Assembly: GCA_028705995.1 (NCBI GenBank)
Contig: JAQWCH010000008.1
Coordinates: forward strand, 1-46,673
Origin: Bacilli bacterium
GTDB taxonomy: Bacteria; Bacillota_I; Bacilli_A; RFN20; CAG-826
Reading direction: 5' to 3'
Length of the DNA stretch: 46,673 nt
The translations under genes and the position numbers were made by a program. Positions within the stretch are counted from its first letter, which is position 1. Every line of letters starts with the position of its first letter. Below the pieces are notes generated by a model. The model was not told the origin of the DNA and searched no databases. It saw only the letters and a program-made list of their open reading frames with translations. Shown piece after piece: positions 38,375 through 45,069 of the stretch.

Positions 38375-38728
38375 ATGATTGAACAAACAAAAACATTTCG
38401 GCAACTGGATAATGAAGTTAAGAAAATTGCTAATGTCTACCGTATATATCAAGCGCGGAAAGAACTACGCAGTATTAATGATAATTCACCAATTACACTT
38501 GTTTTACACGACCATACTTTTCAAGCTTCCGTAGTTGAAGAACAACGCTATATGTCGATTGTAGAACTGGCGATTAAACGGCTATTAGAAGATGAACGCC
38601 GGATTATTCGCAACGATTATTTTCTTGATCAAACACTGAATTGGTGGTGCACGTATTATTCACGATCGGCATATTACCGGTTTAAAAAGCAGGCATTGAA
38701 CAAATTTATCGCCTTTTTATCAATATGA
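38375..38728 (+). CDS. Small helical protein, possibly DNA-binding
   Basis: The 117-residue product is helical and charged. Its last third, TLNWWCTYYSRSAYYRFKKQALNKF in two parts, resembles the C-terminal helix-turn-helix of sigma-region-4-like regulators of the phage ArpU/MG284 type, where WW.YYSRSTYYR is common. It is the first gene of the pilus-like operon, overlapping the next by ATGA, so a regulatory role over that operon is possible. Ribosome site GTGAGG at 38361. Assignment is tentative. Confidence 0.6.
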   Translation: MIEQTKTFRQLDNEVKKIANVYRIYQARKELRSINDNSPITLVLHDHTFQASVVEEQRYMSIVELAIKRLLEDERRIIRNDYFLDQTLNWWCTYYSRSAYYRFKKQALNKFIAFLSI

Positions 38729-39753
38729 AAAAATTATTATTTTTATTGAGTATCGGTTTTACTCTTCTTACAACAGCGCACAATCAGCAAGGGGCCTTAG
38801 CAATTACATTTCCATTTTATACTGAAAATCCTTTGCGTCCGCTACAAGTTGAGACACGAAATGATGATCTAATTTTTTTTCGACCAGTAACGAGTGCTAA
38901 ATATCAAATATATATACAAACAATGTTAAGCGGAAGTTATTATTCACTCTATTCCTTATCAATGACAATGACCGCTGGACGTGATTATCCAATCAAGTTT
39001 CAACTCAATCAATATTTTTTTAAAGACTCACGCATAATCCGCATTGTCGTAAACGAAAATGGTCGAGTTCATCCGTTTTATTATTTCAATATTGGCTTTG
39101 TTGATGGTAAGACGATTAACCCAGCAAATCTCACGGATAAAATGTATCAAGCAACAGGCTTTCTTACCGCATTAGTTCATAACAGTGGCCCCCAATATTT
39201 ATATGAACGGATCTTTTTCGATGGTTATAATTCCTTTCACACTCAAAATATTTATTATCAAGTGGACCTTGCCCTTTTTAACTTTACATATAACCGCGAA
39301 GCTGCAATTATTATCGATTCACCAGTCCGCCTTGGAATATATGATCCGAATAATTTATTTCCAAAATTTAGCCATGGAATTGATAAATATTTTTATATCA
39401 ATTTAAAAATGCAATATGAACCAATTGGCCATCGTTTTTATTATGCTTTTGCTGAAGCGTTATATGTCGAACCAACAACTTTAATTATGGCCCCGTATCA
39501 AGAAACAGGCTTTGAACCGATAAATCGTTTATTGTTTCCCTTAAATACTTTTTTAAAAGGGCAACAAATCACAATTCGCTTAGAAGTAAACCCGCTTGGT
39601 ATTAATCAAATTCATGTTCTTTACCAAGCAGCTTTACGCTCCATTCATCCGTTTTATAGCCGTAATAGTCTCAGTATGTATTACCTGGAAACAAACATTG
39701 AAAGCGTCCCAGAATGGGGCGTCATAATGAGTGAGATGCCAACTGATGGTTAA
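38725..39753 (+). CDS. Secreted protein of unknown family in the pilus-like operon
   Basis: A signal peptide (LLFLLSIGFTLLTTAHNQQG) with probable signal peptidase I cleavage near residue 26 leads a 316-residue mature chain. It is rich in Tyr, Phe and Asn and predicted to be all beta, with no repeats and no cysteine. No family is recognised. It is translationally coupled to the genes on both sides and could be an adhesin or a scaffold of the apparatus. Confidence 0.7.
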   Translation: MKKLLFLLSIGFTLLTTAHNQQGALAITFPFYTENPLRPLQVETRNDDLIFFRPVTSAKYQIYIQTMLSGSYYSLYSLSMTMTAGRDYPIKFQLNQYFFKDSRIIRIVVNENGRVHPFYYFNIGFVDGKTINPANLTDKMYQATGFLTALVHNSGPQYLYERIFFDGYNSFHTQNIYYQVDLALFNFTYNREAAIIIDSPVRLGIYDPNNLFPKFSHGIDKYFYINLKMQYEPIGHRFYYAFAEALYVEPTTLIMAPYQETGFEPINRLLFPLNTFLKGQQITIRLEVNPLGINQIHVLYQAALRSIHPFYSRNSLSMYYLETNIESVPEWGVIMSEMPTDG

Positions 39754-40135
39754 TATCTTTTTGAGCATTTTAATGATGATGTCTTCATTAATGCTTTTTA
39801 CCTATCAATATCGATTTAATGGAATTCATCGAACGTTTTTACTTTTAAATAACGGCGTGATCGACCAAGGAATTGAATTTGATGTAGCTAACGAAAAAGC
39901 ACCAATTTTTGTCGCTCAAGAACTAGAAGCAGCAGTTAATGAATATTTATTTACATATCTAGCGCAATATACAGGTTCTTATCTGATTAGCTTTTACTAT
40001 TATGAACCAGAAGCGCAAACCTATTGCTTCAATAATTGCCAAGGTGTTCAAATTCATCTTATTGTTAATTTAAGTCCATTACCTGCATATGATCATTATC
40101 AAAATGTAGTAATTAATAGCCGTTATGACACATAA
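39746..40135 (+). CDS. TadE/minor-pilin-like single-span protein
   Basis: One N-terminal hydrophobic helix (about residues 2-22) is followed by a soluble domain of about 105 residues with one CxxxC pair (YCFNNCQGVQIHL). Size, topology and neighbours resemble TadE/TadF-type minor pilins. The start is ATG 39746; GTG 39731 is an alternative. It overlaps the preceding stop by 8 nt and the next start by 11 nt. It resembles the product of 42526 in layout. Confidence 0.55.
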   Translation: MVNIFLSILMMMSSLMLFTYQYRFNGIHRTFLLLNNGVIDQGIEFDVANEKAPIFVAQELEAAVNEYLFTYLAQYTGSYLISFYYYEPEAQTYCFNNCQGVQIHLIVNLSPLPAYDHYQNVVINSRYDT

Positions 40136-41174
40136 AATTATGGAGCATATTTTGTCCAGTCCGCTGGCCCCATTATTAGATGAAAAAACAGTTACTGATA
40201 TTACATTTAATGGGCAAGACATATATTTTCAAGATAGTTTAACGGGAAGAAATAAAAGTGCGATTGTCTTATCACAAGAACAGGCAATGAGTTTTATACG
40301 GCAAATTGCTAATCTTAGTGGACAACAATTTTCCGTGCAAGATCCACTACTTGATTTGAGTGTCGAGTATATACGTATTAACGCCGTCCACCCCTCAATT
40401 GGTCGGCTAAATTATCAAGGTAGCGTCACATTTGCAATTCGAAAACGCACTAGTCAGTTAGTGAATTATCAGGACGGAAAATTTATGCCGAAAGTTGTAG
40501 AAGAACTTTTAATTGCTTTTTTGACGGCCCATTATTCACTAGTAATTAGTGGTGTGACTGGTAGTGGGAAAACTGAACTGCAAAAATATCTCCTGGGTAA
40601 ATTAAAACGCGCTAGTCGCGTAATAGTGATCGATAATATCCTTGAGTTAGAAGATGTTCGAAACGAAAACATTGATTTAACAATTTGGGAAAGCAATGAT
40701 TGGCATCCGCAAGCAAGTTTCTCACATCTTATTCGCAATGGCTTACGGGCACATCCGGATTGGTTGATTGTCGCAGAAAGTCGTGGGGCGGAGATGCTCG
40801 ATGTGCTTAATGCGGCATTAAGTGGTCATCCGCTGATTACAACTATGCATGCGCAAGATTTGCATTCCATACCTGCACGCTTAACAAGAATGGTGTTAAT
40901 GGGGGATAAAAACCTTGATTATCACCTAGTCTTTCAGGATATTGTTCATCATTTCCCAATCTTGATTCACCTTGGAATTCAAGTTAATACAGTCGGACAA
41001 ATTGAGCGTTTCATCAGCGGGATTGGCTATCTTGATGAAGATAATAATGGGAAATTATTACCAATATATGAAAACAAGCAAGGCCAAATAAAATATTTTC
41101 ATTTACCAGATAAACTAAAAGAAAGACTCGCCAAACAAAAAAGTATGATTGATCTTTGGGAAGTACTGTGCTGA
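40125..41174 (+). CDS. CpaF/TadA-type secretion ATPase
   Basis: This 349-residue protein has the VirB11/CpaF layout. The N-terminal domain carries DEKTVTDITFNGQDIYF and RIN.VHPS; the ATPase domain has Walker A GVTGSGKT (143-150), the acidic ILELED stretch near 172, Walker B WLIVAESRGAE (213-223) and the His box SGHPLITTMHA (233-243). Such hexamers power assembly of Tad pili. It lacks the long N-terminal extension of many CpaF proteins, which matches the compact size of the system. TadB- and TadC-like genes follow directly. Confidence 0.93.
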   Translation: MTHKIMEHILSSPLAPLLDEKTVTDITFNGQDIYFQDSLTGRNKSAIVLSQEQAMSFIRQIANLSGQQFSVQDPLLDLSVEYIRINAVHPSIGRLNYQGSVTFAIRKRTSQLVNYQDGKFMPKVVEELLIAFLTAHYSLVISGVTGSGKTELQKYLLGKLKRASRVIVIDNILELEDVRNENIDLTIWESNDWHPQASFSHLIRNGLRAHPDWLIVAESRGAEMLDVLNAALSGHPLITTMHAQDLHSIPARLTRMVLMGDKNLDYHLVFQDIVHHFPILIHLGIQVNTVGQIERFISGIGYLDEDNNGKLLPIYENKQGQIKYFHLPDKLKERLAKQKSMIDLWEVLC

Positions 41175-41926
41175 TGAAAAAGAGTTGGATAATTGCTGTT
41201 TTTATGAGTATATTTGGTCTAATAATTGGCACAATTGGCTTTTCTTCATACATTAAAGGTGGGCTTGTAGGCTTTATCTATCTAGTAATCACAATCATTG
41301 ATATTGTTCCGCGTATCAATACATATAATGTCGCGCTTCAGCGAAAAAAAGAAGGATATCAATTCATGAATAATTTCCTTATCACCCTGAGTGTTCATCG
41401 CAATATAGTGCATACATATGAGATAACTCAAAAACAATTTTCCAGTGATTTAATGCATTGGACAAATGACCTTGAAGGAATGCTTGTCAATGAAAAACTT
41501 GGTCAATTGAGTGCATATTTCCAGATAAAAATATATATATTATTTATTGATTTTCTTACAATTTATGAACAAGAAGGTGGCGAAGTTTTGCAAATGGCAG
41601 AACTCCTATTAACTAATATTCGGCGTGAAGCGGCCGAACTTACAAAATATGATTTGCTCTATGGAAGAAAAATGATTGAGTTTATTTTACTTTGGTTAAT
41701 GACTTTTGCCATTCTCGTGACAACGCGGTTTAGCCTTGGGACAATGTATTTCACAATGTTAACAAATGCTTTATTTCAGATTATTCTTGGTGGTTTTTTT
41801 CTAGTATTTATCATTGCAACATCAATATTATTTCGCTTAATGTTCAAAAGCAAAGATTGGGGTAATCGTTATGAGTCGGTGGGAACAAAAATTAAAAAAT
41901 CTTGGTTTCAGCGTAAAAAAAATTGA
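41174..41926 (+). CDS. TadB-like inner-membrane protein
   Basis: The 250-residue product has two N-terminal helices (about 5-24 and 30-48), a cytoplasmic T2SSF-type helical domain (QFMNNFLITLSVHRNIVHTY...) and two C-terminal helices (about 168-185 and 190-222). This is the TadB arrangement, which forms the membrane platform for the ATPase. Start ATG 41174 shares one base with the ATPase stop (TGATG). The sequence is divergent, so the call rests on topology and gene order. Confidence 0.75.
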   Translation: MKKSWIIAVFMSIFGLIIGTIGFSSYIKGGLVGFIYLVITIIDIVPRINTYNVALQRKKEGYQFMNNFLITLSVHRNIVHTYEITQKQFSSDLMHWTNDLEGMLVNEKLGQLSAYFQIKIYILFIDFLTIYEQEGGEVLQMAELLLTNIRREAAELTKYDLLYGRKMIEFILLWLMTFAILVTTRFSLGTMYFTMLTNALFQIILGGFFLVFIIATSILFRLMFKSKDWGNRYESVGTKIKKSWFQRKKN

Positions 41927-42536
41927 ATTTAGTTTTTTAATTCTTATAATTCTCACTTTAATCGGTGGGATATTACTTATTATTAATCGACAGTGGGGAT
42001 TAGCATCTTTAATTTTTGCGAGTAATTTTATCATCGGCTTTTCTTTTTATTATTATGTGCGGCAAGTTCAAGAACAGTTAATACGTAAAAAAGAAGAGGA
42101 ATTTGCGGCAATATTCACCAACTTTCGTATTTATCTTGGCCATGGACGTAATGTTTATCAAGCTTTACAACTATGTCAAGAACATGCTTCAAATAATCTT
42201 CGACCATTACTTGAAAACCTTATTTTCATGATTGATCATGACCAAAGTGTGCGACCATTTATGGAGTTTTCTACGCATTTTGTTCATCCTTTGATTGAAG
42301 AAGTTGTGATTGCAATGTATCAAATGATTGATGCCGGTCGCGATTCAAGATACTTATGGCATTTTAACTACCTATTTAGTAAGTATGATGAACAAATCGC
42401 GGAACAAAAGTATCAACAAAAAAGCAAAACATTGGAGCGCATAAATATGAGTGCAATGCTTGGTGCTGGAATTCTTGTTGTGGCTTTAGCAGTTGGCATC
42501 ATTCAAATGATTGGTGGCGTGATGTATGGGATCTAA
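41871..42536 (+). CDS. TadC-like inner-membrane protein
   Basis: The 221-residue protein has two N-terminal helices (about 19-37 and 42-62), a T2SSF-like domain (FAAIFTNFRIYLGHGRNVYQ then ALQLCQEHA) and a C-terminal helix (about 195-215). It overlaps the TadB-like gene by 56 nt in another frame, with the ribosome site GGGGTAA inside that gene. Two separate T2SSF proteins, instead of one, are a mark of Tad systems and argue against a ComG machine. Confidence 0.75.
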   Translation: MSRWEQKLKNLGFSVKKIEFSFLILIILTLIGGILLIINRQWGLASLIFASNFIIGFSFYYYVRQVQEQLIRKKEEEFAAIFTNFRIYLGHGRNVYQALQLCQEHASNNLRPLLENLIFMIDHDQSVRPFMEFSTHFVHPLIEEVVIAMYQMIDAGRDSRYLWHFNYLFSKYDEQIAEQKYQQKSKTLERINMSAMLGAGILVVALAVGIIQMIGGVMYGI

Positions 42537-42867
42537 AGTTGGTGTCTTGTTATCATTTTTATTTGTTTTACAGGTGCTCTTATTTGGTGGTGATATTAGT
42601 AACGTGCAAATTGTTCATAGTGAATTAGATGCATTAGCGACGCATGTCGCCCAAAAGATTGGCTACGATGGTTATCTTAGTGTGAATACGATTACTTATG
42701 TCGAATCATATCCGAATACGACTATTCGCTGTTTATCCGGATGCGCCCCACGCTTTGGTGATACCTTAGTGTTTGAAATAATGCGTGATTATCAGCCTTT
42801 TGTTTTACAAAAGGATATTCTGACAATTCGCGTTGAACGCGCCGCGGTTATCGGATACTACAACTAA
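42526..42867 (+). CDS. TadE/minor-pilin-like single-span protein with CxxxC
   Basis: The 113-residue product has an N-terminal hydrophobic helix (about 5-22) and a soluble domain with IRCLSGCAPRFGDTLVFEI, a CxxxC in the same relative place as in the 39746 product. The N-terminus lacks a clear GxxxxE prepilin site. Start overlaps the TadC-like stop by 11 nt. A minor pilin or TadE-like role is the best guess. Confidence 0.55.
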   Translation: MGSKVGVLLSFLFVLQVLLFGGDISNVQIVHSELDALATHVAQKIGYDGYLSVNTITYVESYPNTTIRCLSGCAPRFGDTLVFEIMRDYQPFVLQKDILTIRVERAAVIGYYN

Positions 42868-42884
42868 AAAGAAAGGAGGAAAAC

Positions 42885-43070
42885 ATGGGAGAAATAAAAG
42901 GTCAAATTCTTGGCGTTGTATTGGTCTTAACTATTTTTGGTTTAATCGCTGGAATATTTGCTCAAGTATTTAAGGATGCTGCTAATAACGTAGCTTCACA
43001 AGTAACGAGTCAAGTCAACTATACACCACCCGTAACACCAGCGGCGATCGTCGTCGAGTTGATTTCTTAA
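42885..43070 (+). CDS. 61-residue pilin-like peptide (candidate major pilin)
   Basis: The sequence starts MGEIKGQILGVVLVLTIFGL, then has a helix to about residue 40 and a Thr/Pro tail. The size and the charged start followed by a long hydrophobic helix resemble Flp pilins. The KGQ before the hydrophobic core is like the class III signal of archaeal pilins, but the +5 Glu is missing. It has the strongest ribosome site of the operon, AAAGGAGG, and is the last gene before a terminator, both fitting an abundant subunit. Confidence 0.65.
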   Translation: MGEIKGQILGVVLVLTIFGLIAGIFAQVFKDAANNVASQVTSQVNYTPPVTPAAIVVELIS

Positions 43071-43078
43071 ATAGATAT

Positions 43079-43102
43079 AAGGACCTCCGGGTCCTTTTTT
43101 TG
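43079..43102 (+). terminator. Terminator of the pilus-like operon
   Basis: AAGGACC (43079-43085) pairs with GGTCCTT (43090-43096) around TCCG and is followed by seven T. Confidence 0.93.
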
Positions 43103-43131
43103 TTGAGAATTATTATATTAAAAGATATAAT
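43103..43131 (+). promoter_or_regulatory. acpP promoter
   Basis: TTGAGA (43103-43108) and TATAAT (43126-43131) are 17 bp apart, close behind the terminator of the pilus-like operon. Confidence 0.85.
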
Positions 43132-43166: not shown

Positions 43167-43397
43167 ATGAATGACAGAATCAAAGAAATTGAAGCAACTT
43201 TTGCCGAAACACTAAAAGTCGATCATGTTGATCCAAATGCTGAACTTCGCGATCTCGGACTGGACTCACTAGATTTAGTCGAATTACTAATTAAACTTGA
43301 GGAAAAATTTGGTGTCGAATTCTCAAATGAAGAAATGCCAAACTTTAAAACAGTTCAAGACGTTTACACCGCAATTGAAAAGAAATTAAATAAGTAA
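43167..43397 (+). CDS. acpP: Acyl carrier protein
   Basis: The 76-residue acidic protein carries the 4'-phosphopantetheine attachment site LGLDSLDLVEL with Ser near residue 34, and the usual helix order ending in YTAIEKKLNK. It shuttles acyl chains in fatty acid or phospholipid synthesis. AAGGGAA precedes the start. It stands alone, without fab genes beside it. Confidence 0.96.
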   Translation: MNDRIKEIEATFAETLKVDHVDPNAELRDLGLDSLDLVELLIKLEEKFGVEFSNEEMPNFKTVQDVYTAIEKKLNK

Positions 43398-43681: not shown

Positions 43682-44521
43682 TTAAATTATAGGGGATTGA
43701 ATGGACTGATGTCTAAACTTTATAGGACTCAGTCCTTTTAATTTGCAAGAAATCCTGTCGTTATTGTAATAATTGATATAATCAATAATCGCTTCTTTTA
43801 ATTGATTTAGTGTTTTGAATTCGAATTCATGTCCATAAAACATTTCTCTTTTCAAAATGCCGAAGAAATTTTCTGTTGGCGAATTATCTAAACAATTTCC
43901 TTTTCTAGACATTGATTGAATAATTCCGTGAGCTTTTAATGTTTCTTTATATTCATACATCTGGTACTGCCATCCTTGATCGGAGTGCATTATGATTCCA
44001 TCGGCTTTTGGATATCTTTCAAATGCTTTGTTCAACATATTCGTTATTTGTCTAAAGTTTGGTGATATCGAAACATCGAAACTTATTATTTCTCTAGTGT
44101 GAAAATCAATGATTGGCGACAAGTATAGCTTACCAGCAGCAATATGAAATTCGGTTACATCAGTACCCCATTTTTGGTTTGGAGCGGTTGTATCAAAATT
44201 TCTATCATAGATAGTTTTATGTTTTTCTTTATCAACCTTTTTATCGATAAGAATATTTTTACAAGTTCCGTTCATGTCTCCTTTATATGATTTATATTTA
44301 GCCTTTGCCTTAATACCAAAAAGATTCAAACTCGACATGATACGTTTAACTTTTTTGTGATTAACTACAAAACCTCTATTCTTAAGTTCTAGAGTTATTC
44401 TTCTATAGCCATATCTAGATTTATTGGTGATATAAATATCGACGATCTCATTAATAATTTCTTCATTTTTATTATCTAAATTAACTTTGTTAAGATTGTA
44501 GAAATAAGTCGATTTAGACAA
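43682..44521 (-). CDS. IS3-family transposase OrfB (inner IS)
   Basis: This is the catalytic part of the transposase. It starts in an HTH_21-like region (YRRITLELKNRGFVVNHKKV) and has the rve DDE core: GTDVTEF (first Asp), HSDQGWQYQM (second Asp) and DNSPTENFFGILKREMFYG (Glu). All three acidic residues are intact, so the element may be active. The frame is open upstream of its first start-like codon and overlaps orfA in the -1 frame, so the full OrfAB fusion would be made by frameshifting. Confidence 0.92.
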   Translation of the reverse strand: MSKSTYFYNLNKVNLDNKNEEIINEIVDIYITNKSRYGYRRITLELKNRGFVVNHKKVKRIMSSLNLFGIKAKAKYKSYKGDMNGTCKNILIDKKVDKEKHKTIYDRNFDTTAPNQKWGTDVTEFHIAAGKLYLSPIIDFHTREIISFDVSISPNFRQITNMLNKAFERYPKADGIIMHSDQGWQYQMYEYKETLKAHGIIQSMSRKGNCLDNSPTENFFGILKREMFYGHEFEFKTLNQLKEAIIDYINYYNNDRISCKLKGLSPIKFRHQSIQSPII

Positions 44522-44580
44522 TTCTGAAATTTCTAATAAGGTGCTTAATTTATATTTATGCCTTAATTCATTAACAATAC

Positions 44581-45069
44581 TTACTTTTTCTTCGATTGTT
44601 GCACCTTTCTTTTTTGAACTAAGGCATCTAGTTTTTTTAAGTATTCGACCTTTGCTTTTAAATATTTGTTTTCTTTTTCTAATTCAGCGCGAGTCTTTCT
44701 TCCTGGTGTGTTCTTCGACATTTTCGGTGGCCTTCCTGATAAGTGATTTAATTCTATACCAGAAATACCTCCTTTTGAATAAAGAGAAACCCATTTAGAT
44801 AATAAGGATTTGCTTATCCCTAAAGAAGCAGCAACATCAGCTTTGCTTTCTCCAGTAAGGAATCTTGCAACAGCATGTACTTTCTCTTTAATGGTTCTTT
44901 TGTGATAGCGGTGACTAAGGCCTTCTTCTCCATGATATTCATAAAGCTTAACCCATGTCCTTACAGTTTTAGAGCATGTATGTTTTGTTCCATCTCCAAA
45001 CTTAGGAATTACTTCTCCGTTCAAGTATTTTTTAACCATTTCTAACTTGAACTCTTTTGTGAACTTCAT
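44581..45069 (-). CDS. IS3-family OrfA (inner IS)
   Basis: The 162-residue protein has two helix-turn-helix units (about 10-40 and 60-100; SKADVAASLGISKSLLSKWV) and a C-terminal leucine-zipper-like coiled coil (ELEKENKYLKAKVEYLKKL). It binds the terminal repeats. The ribosome site AAGGAGGG precedes its ATG. The last codons, read on the minus strand, are AAG AAA AAG TAA, a likely -1 slippage site into orfB. Confidence 0.9.
   Translation of the reverse strand: MKFTKEFKLEMVKKYLNGEVIPKFGDGTKHTCSKTVRTWVKLYEYHGEEGLSHRYHKRTIKEKVHAVARFLTGESKADVAASLGISKSLLSKWVSLYSKGGISGIELNHLSGRPPKMSKNTPGRKTRAELEKENKYLKAKVEYLKKLDALVQKRKVQQSKKK

Follow-up and report, generated by a model that had tools for sequence, protein, structure and literature searches.

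Can a type IV filament be built without a prepilin peptidase? Cleavage of the prepilin is treated as a defining, obligatory step of these systems, and the question is raised by a compact operon in the genome of a Bacilli bacterium (GenBank assembly GCA_028705995.1; 1.02 Mb, 95% complete). A stretch of 46,673 nucleotides from contig JAQWCH010000008.1 (the window) was analyzed, and the listing of its open reading frames places eight co-directional genes, here called gA to gH, within positions 38375–43070 of the + strand. Our preferred reading, to which we would give a probability of roughly 0.55, is that they encode a minimal adhesive filament of Tad-like type, with pilins that no prepilin peptidase cleaves; that the operon specifies a machine of the type IV filament class is very probable. 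A first-pass annotation of the window had already proposed a minimal filament machine with a secreted partner, and this is now backed by conserved gene order, family matches, and a tree of the ATPase. The clade-wide lack of a peptidase, the pilins without a normal leader, and the probably wall-less host are points that it did not contain.

A conserved cassette with a Tad-type motor

All of the open reading frames described by the first-pass annotation were present on one strand at their claimed coordinates. Neighboring genes overlap by 4–56 nucleotides (1–56 had been claimed), except that gG and gH stand 17 nucleotides apart, the sole gap. The motor is encoded by gD (40125–41174, + strand), whose product proved to be the CpaF/TadA-type ATPase that had been recognized earlier. 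It matches T2SSE (E 3e-23) and the TadA model TIGR03819 (E 1.4e-37, under that model’s equivalog cut-off), along with VirB11 (TIGR02788, E 5e-31) and ComGA (2e-17), and its best solved relatives are the archaeal GspE 2oap and CpaF 8rkd. Its catalytic residues are intact, with G143, G148, K149, E174, E218, E223, and H242 invariant in an alignment of 33 sequences, and gD is the TadA/CpaF-clade ATPase expected of a Tad, or type IVc, pilus.

The platform is divided between the TadB-like gE (41174–41926, + strand), which in relatives also lies directly 3′ of the ATPase gene, and the TadC-like gF (41871–42536, + strand). The listed frame of gE begins with TTG at 41156, and comparison with relatives moves the probable start to 41174. 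The window copy of gE has no Pfam match; T2SSF was detected weakly in 9 of 32 gF relatives (best E 2e-5) and at 0.054 in the window’s own gF. On iterative search, gE joins the gF family, in keeping with the TadB/TadC assignment made earlier. Adjacent and mutually homologous, the two proteins correspond to a two-protein TadB/TadC platform, albeit with weak T2SSF matches, and on sequence grounds they are classed as a split GspF-type platform.

An ATPase match was found in 39 of 58 relatives. Thirty-seven of these matches belong to the operon; the two weakest, in genomes G041 and G054, come from GspE-type motors that serve a different pilus. The order gA-gB-gC-gD-gE-gF-gG-gH recurs, contig ends aside, in 37/58 relatives, which span several families within one order. 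In a few loci, gA or gB has diverged past detection by open reading frame calling and profile searches. The cassette is likewise present in all of the best 80 named loci, some interrupted by contig ends; these were retrieved with an alignment as query, a genome scan with the single ATPase sequence having returned none. These derive from metagenome-assembled genomes labelled Bacillales, Erysipelotrichaceae, Bacilli or Mollicutes bacterium, Candidatus Alloenteromonas, or Onthovivens, and from such labels we infer that the order is RFN20 of GTDB. Gene-order comparison, which the first-pass annotation had suggested as a check, therefore found the genes co-occurring, and chance is judged to be excluded as the cause of their order. 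One genome of the source’s own family (G201) carries a strongly diverged copy of the locus in which gH was not found.

The operon motors form one clade (support 99/94), with those of G058 and G062 as the closest outgroups; motors from canonical Tad systems of this class stand apart. In G062, the nearest short Tad-like cassette lies directly beside open reading frames that resemble VirB6, PrgI, and VirB4 (by appearance, without a family search), as if a pilus cassette were riding in a conjugative element.

Reduced cassettes occur in two further families of the same order (f3 and f4; loci L191, L192, L193, L194, and L202, from several genera), with the arrangement gA-gB-gC-fused platform-gG. Motor and gH are absent from these loci, and PF01478 was likewise not found. 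Their gB and gG are homologous to those of the operon at ~97% by HHalign, and gG there starts mostly with MKK and no longer with M[S/G]..K.G. Since this start was lost where motor and gH were lost, the motif appears to follow filament assembly.

The prepilin peptidase and the pilin start

No prepilin peptidase had been seen at the locus by the first-pass annotation, and the absence extends to the whole genome. PF01478 (Peptidase_A24) was found neither in the source genome nor in any of the 37 operon-bearing genomes of the first set (0/37); only G041 and G054, the carriers of the other pilus, had it. Among 27 further operon-bearing genomes sampled from the class, G307 has a real PF01478 gene, located inside a separate classical type IV pilus locus; a match in G368 was rejected as spurious, being a sub-cut-off hit to a 94-residue frame inside an unrelated gene. 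A true prepilin peptidase is thus present in 1/64 operon-bearing genomes (37 + 27). The archaeal peptidase family PF06847 is missing from the source genome and from all 58 relatives. As a control, PF01478 was detected in 16/17 outgroup genomes of the same class with related motors, so the search works in near relatives. With neither family in the source genome, the TadV component of the Tad model (PMC6668835) was not found. In the sister lineage G058, a PF01478 gene lies immediately 3′ of the platform gene and, because the peptidase is kept there, loss within the operon-bearing order would be the simpler history. This loss is not tied to loss of the cell wall, since families f6 and f8 possess the transpeptidase PF00905 and the operon while lacking PF01478.

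The candidate major pilin, gH (42885–43070, + strand), is a 61-residue protein beginning MGEIKGQILG and is the sole such gene in the genome. A family search gave no pilin-family Pfam match, and gH is called Flp-like by virtue of its size and single span. Across 89 distinct sequences, its N-terminus follows M-[S/G/T]-E-x-K-[G/A]-Q-[L/I]-L; residue E3 occurs in 89/89 and K5 in 88/89, position 6 is Gly or Ala in 100%, and Q7 is kept in 89%. The strong ribosome site reported ahead of the gene (AAAGGAGG) was borne out by relatives, 84 of 90 having a 6-nucleotide Shine-Dalgarno match and 5 more a 5-nucleotide match (1.5% and 3%, respectively, for random ATGs). The position of the start codon is regarded as certain from these sequences and, because a near-perfect Shine-Dalgarno fixes it, any leader would have at most six residues. 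Canonical Flp pilins of a relative (L172) have leaders of 11–13 residues ending in SG|QGMVEYG.

Position 2 of gH is always small, the distance from start to helix is fixed, and conservation on the leader side equals that of the helix. Methionine aminopeptidase requires a small second residue. Set against the class III leader, gH agrees in size, helix, and Gly/Ala site, but its leader would be only six residues long and it has no Glu at position 5. Pilins encoded by short Tad-like loci of other families also begin near the hydrophobic helix, and hence short leaders may predate the peptidase’s loss.

Accessory proteins, envelope, and flanking sequence

Among the accessory products, gG (42526–42867, + strand) is a putative TadF-like minor pilin with a CxxxC loop. 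TadF (PF16964) was matched weakly in 6/32 of its relatives (best E 2.5e-4), and its AlphaFold2 model (predicted local distance difference test score, pLDDT, 94.5) consists of a 47-residue helix plus a three-stranded sheet. A PDB fold search with this model gave no match, and PDB sequence searches with gG and gH returned nothing meaningful. Position 2 of gG is a small residue in all distinct relatives; position 6 is Ser instead of Gly/Ala in 14/84 sequences. gC (39746–40135, + strand) encodes a single-span, minor-pilin-like protein with CxxxC that occupies an equivalent position in 34 loci and has no Gly site; its listed frame begins with GTG at 39731, the probable start being moved by comparison, and a search of its family found no Pfam family. 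The CxxxC motif highlighted by the first-pass annotation is indeed present in the window copies of gC and gG and frequent among relatives, but it is gone in many of them and is not a defining feature. The description of the remaining parts as unrecognized does not hold for gA and gG.

The secreted partner, gB (38725–39753, + strand), has 342 residues, a signal peptide, and, as judged by AlphaFold2 (mean pLDDT 83.5), Foldseek, and family-wide conservation, two predicted immunoglobulin (Ig)/fibronectin type III (FnIII)-like beta-sandwiches. Foldseek matches of low template modelling (TM) score include transglutaminase beta domains, RbmA, PECAM-1, and the FnIII domain of GH3; the whole-chain TM of ~0.2 supports the Ig/FnIII class only. 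No Pfam family emerged from a family-level search, and a VESA1_N match (E 0.39) was dismissed as noise. Many relatives carry CxxSxYC at the C-terminus of gB, which the window copy has lost. From its fold and position, gB may be guessed to act as a tip adhesin or as a tethered partner at the surface.

gA (38375–38728, + strand) encodes a 117-residue member of the MG284/MPN403 family (NF045770, E 1.2e-18) with an ArpU/sigma-region-4-like C-terminus. Its C-terminal domain scores 66.8 bits against a curated NCBIfam cut-off of 37.3, and the match to ArpU (TIGR01637) has an E of 1e-3. Because of this membership and the ArpU resemblance, gA is probably the operon’s regulator. In 31 retrieved loci it lies ahead of the cassette, and it occurs free of it in other Bacilli and in mycoplasmas. 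In the mycoplasma locus that we take to be numbered MG284–MG287, the gA family is likewise first and an acyl carrier protein last, with ~375-residue and single-span genes between; it differs in the absence of motor, platform, and pilin. MG285 and MG286 were considered as relics of gB and gC, given their similar position, and were rejected with an HHalign probability of <5%. Nothing useful was found in the literature on MG284–MG286. The same synteny (gA family, ~375-residue protein, ~140–200-residue single-span protein, acyl carrier protein) is seen in most of a group of loci made up of L195 and L204–L223, which are mycoplasma-type with TGA as Trp, and L201; homology to the window locus is demonstrable there only for gA and the acyl carrier protein.

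With respect to the envelope, the genome had been called Gram-positive, which in the walled sense is doubtful because it and most genomes of its family lack a penicillin-binding transpeptidase. PF00905 was not found in the source genome, and within the family only G005 and G016 have it; these two could be walled exceptions or reflect contamination. The host probably has no cell wall, and neither a secretin nor alignment proteins are encoded at the locus.

The operon ends at a terminator-like hairpin (43079–43096, + strand; a 7-bp stem followed by a T run). Nine genes had been reported for the interval, and the ninth open reading frame of the neighborhood is an acyl carrier protein gene lying outside it (43167–43397, + strand; PF00550, E 5e-15), a syntenic neighbor. 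This gene is probably transcribed separately, being preceded by the hairpin and by its own promoter-like site (TTGAGA-17-TATAAT, 43103–43131). Just downstream, on the − strand at 43682–45069, are insertion-sequence-like transposase frames of 279 and 162 residues, the former resembling an IS3-type integrase.

Weighing the readings

If the preferred reading is correct, a gD hexamer would turn the gE/gF platform, and the platform would extract gH pilins from the membrane to form a thin filament. Initiation or capping would fall to gG and gC as minor pilins. The secreted gB, with its Ig-like fold, would ride on the filament tip, or be tethered to it, and bind surfaces, and gA would probably regulate the operon. 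In a lineage that appears to be without an outer membrane or wall, there would be no need for a secretin, an alignment complex, or passage through a wall. gH would be translated almost at its mature N-terminus, from a start about six residues ahead of the hydrophobic helix; its Met would be removed by methionine aminopeptidase thanks to the small second residue, and no prepilin peptidase would act. We lean toward the pilins being unprocessed. The broader proposal, that most of the order has a type IV filament without a prepilin peptidase, its pilins ready-made and trimmed by methionine aminopeptidase only, is tentative.

Alternatively, the first six residues of gH could form a class III leader (MSEIKG|Q), and an unrelated peptidase that took the place of TadV/PilD in the order would then remove it. 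Gly and Ala are the two residues permitted at the cut site (PMC10191384), and position 6 of gH is one or the other in 89/89 sequences; moreover, the PF01478 gene of G058 sits right behind its platform gene. We nevertheless find such an enzyme unlikely, although not to be dismissed lightly, and favor an uncut gH because the leader side is near-invariant and fixed in length, unlike normal leaders, position 2 is small, gG may have Ser at position 6, gC is without a site, and no known peptidase is present, the operon itself offering no candidate. That gB is instead the substrate of a short secretion pseudopilus is distinctly improbable. It always precedes the minor pilin and motor, and folded, beta-rich exoproteins are the cargo of type II-like machines, but gB has its own Sec-type signal, would need no second step without an outer membrane, and is retained in families that lack the motor.

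A competence pseudopilus passing DNA to ComEC is less plausible still. ComEC (PF03772) is encoded by the source genome and by 39/58 relatives, but with no association (26/37 with the operon and 13/21 without; Fisher p 0.57), the ATPase matches TadA (1e-37) over ComGA (2e-17), and the locus lacks the ComGC-type pilin and the genome the PF01478, ComC-type peptidase of a Com pilus. Finally, the VirB11 match of gD and the VirB-like frames adjoining the G062 cassette might point to a remnant of conjugation-like type IV secretion; two T2SSF-type platform proteins with a pilin-like gene are hallmarks of type IV filaments, though, and none of the eight products resembles VirB4, VirB6, VirB8, or any other type IV secretion part, making this a very remote prospect.

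Several points weigh against an uncleaved filament. The smallest textbook class III signal peptide fits gH, as MSEIKG|Q or MSEFKA|Q, even if residue +5 past the putative cut site is not Glu, and a peptidase beyond PF01478 and PF06847 could cut it. Incomplete metagenome-assembled genomes could hide a gene in single cases, but hardly in more than 60. The filament itself is a prediction, and the fact that gB, gC, and gG are retained in f3 and f4, where motor and pilin are missing, suggests a function besides the filament.

Compared with the monoderm Tad pilus, such as that of the Bulleidia extructa tad operon (PMC12786226), the operon has in common a TadA-type motor, a split TadB/TadC platform, a pilin of 50–60 residues, a TadF-like minor pilin, and no secretin. 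It differs in that the genome lacks TadV and the locus lacks TadE, TadG, and a CpaB-like gene; no TadZ is among the eight products, the genome not having been searched for it owing to ParA/MinD cross-matches. The pilin is without a normal leader or Glu5, gB and gA are additional, and the host is probably wall-less. The operon is read as working like a Tad pilus, yet we do not class it among the Tad pili, since TadV was searched for and not found. The short Tad-like loci seen in other families of Bacilli (L157–L167) share the short motor and small pilins starting near the helix (MKAFFEEYG..., MKEATGELN...). They differ in that PF01478 is present in nearly all of their genomes (some of which also contain a second, canonical Tad locus), their pilins start M[K/R] rather than M[S/G]E.K, and some loci include a CpaB-like-looking protein. 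Four of them (L164–L167, family f17) have several paralogous pilin-like genes, all with an M[K/R]xxxG start, and L164 and L165 also encode a secreted protein of ~1,000 residues. Archaeal type IV filaments, with their GspE/FlaI-type motors, provide the closest solved motor to gD (2oap), but archaeal control genomes have PF06847- or PF01478-type peptidases, which the operon genomes lack, G307 aside.

By term search, pili are not mentioned in two papers on these orders (PMC10868615, PMC7301438). In the reviews searched, absence of the peptidase is recorded only for Nanoarchaeota (PMC4471445) and for MSH loci, in which it is encoded elsewhere in the genome (PMC6668835). Whether the pilins are processed is directly testable in this order, given that the peptidase is missing clade- and genome-wide, the motor is intact, and the pilin start is conserved. 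If the preferred reading holds, this would be, to our knowledge, the first processing-free member of the type IV filaments, in wall-less cells. With four machine genes (motor, two platform halves, and pilin) plus minor pilins, it may be the smallest gene set for a type IV filament that we know of. For uncultured, probably peptidoglycan-deficient gut bacteria, the operon is likely to represent a machine for surface adhesion.

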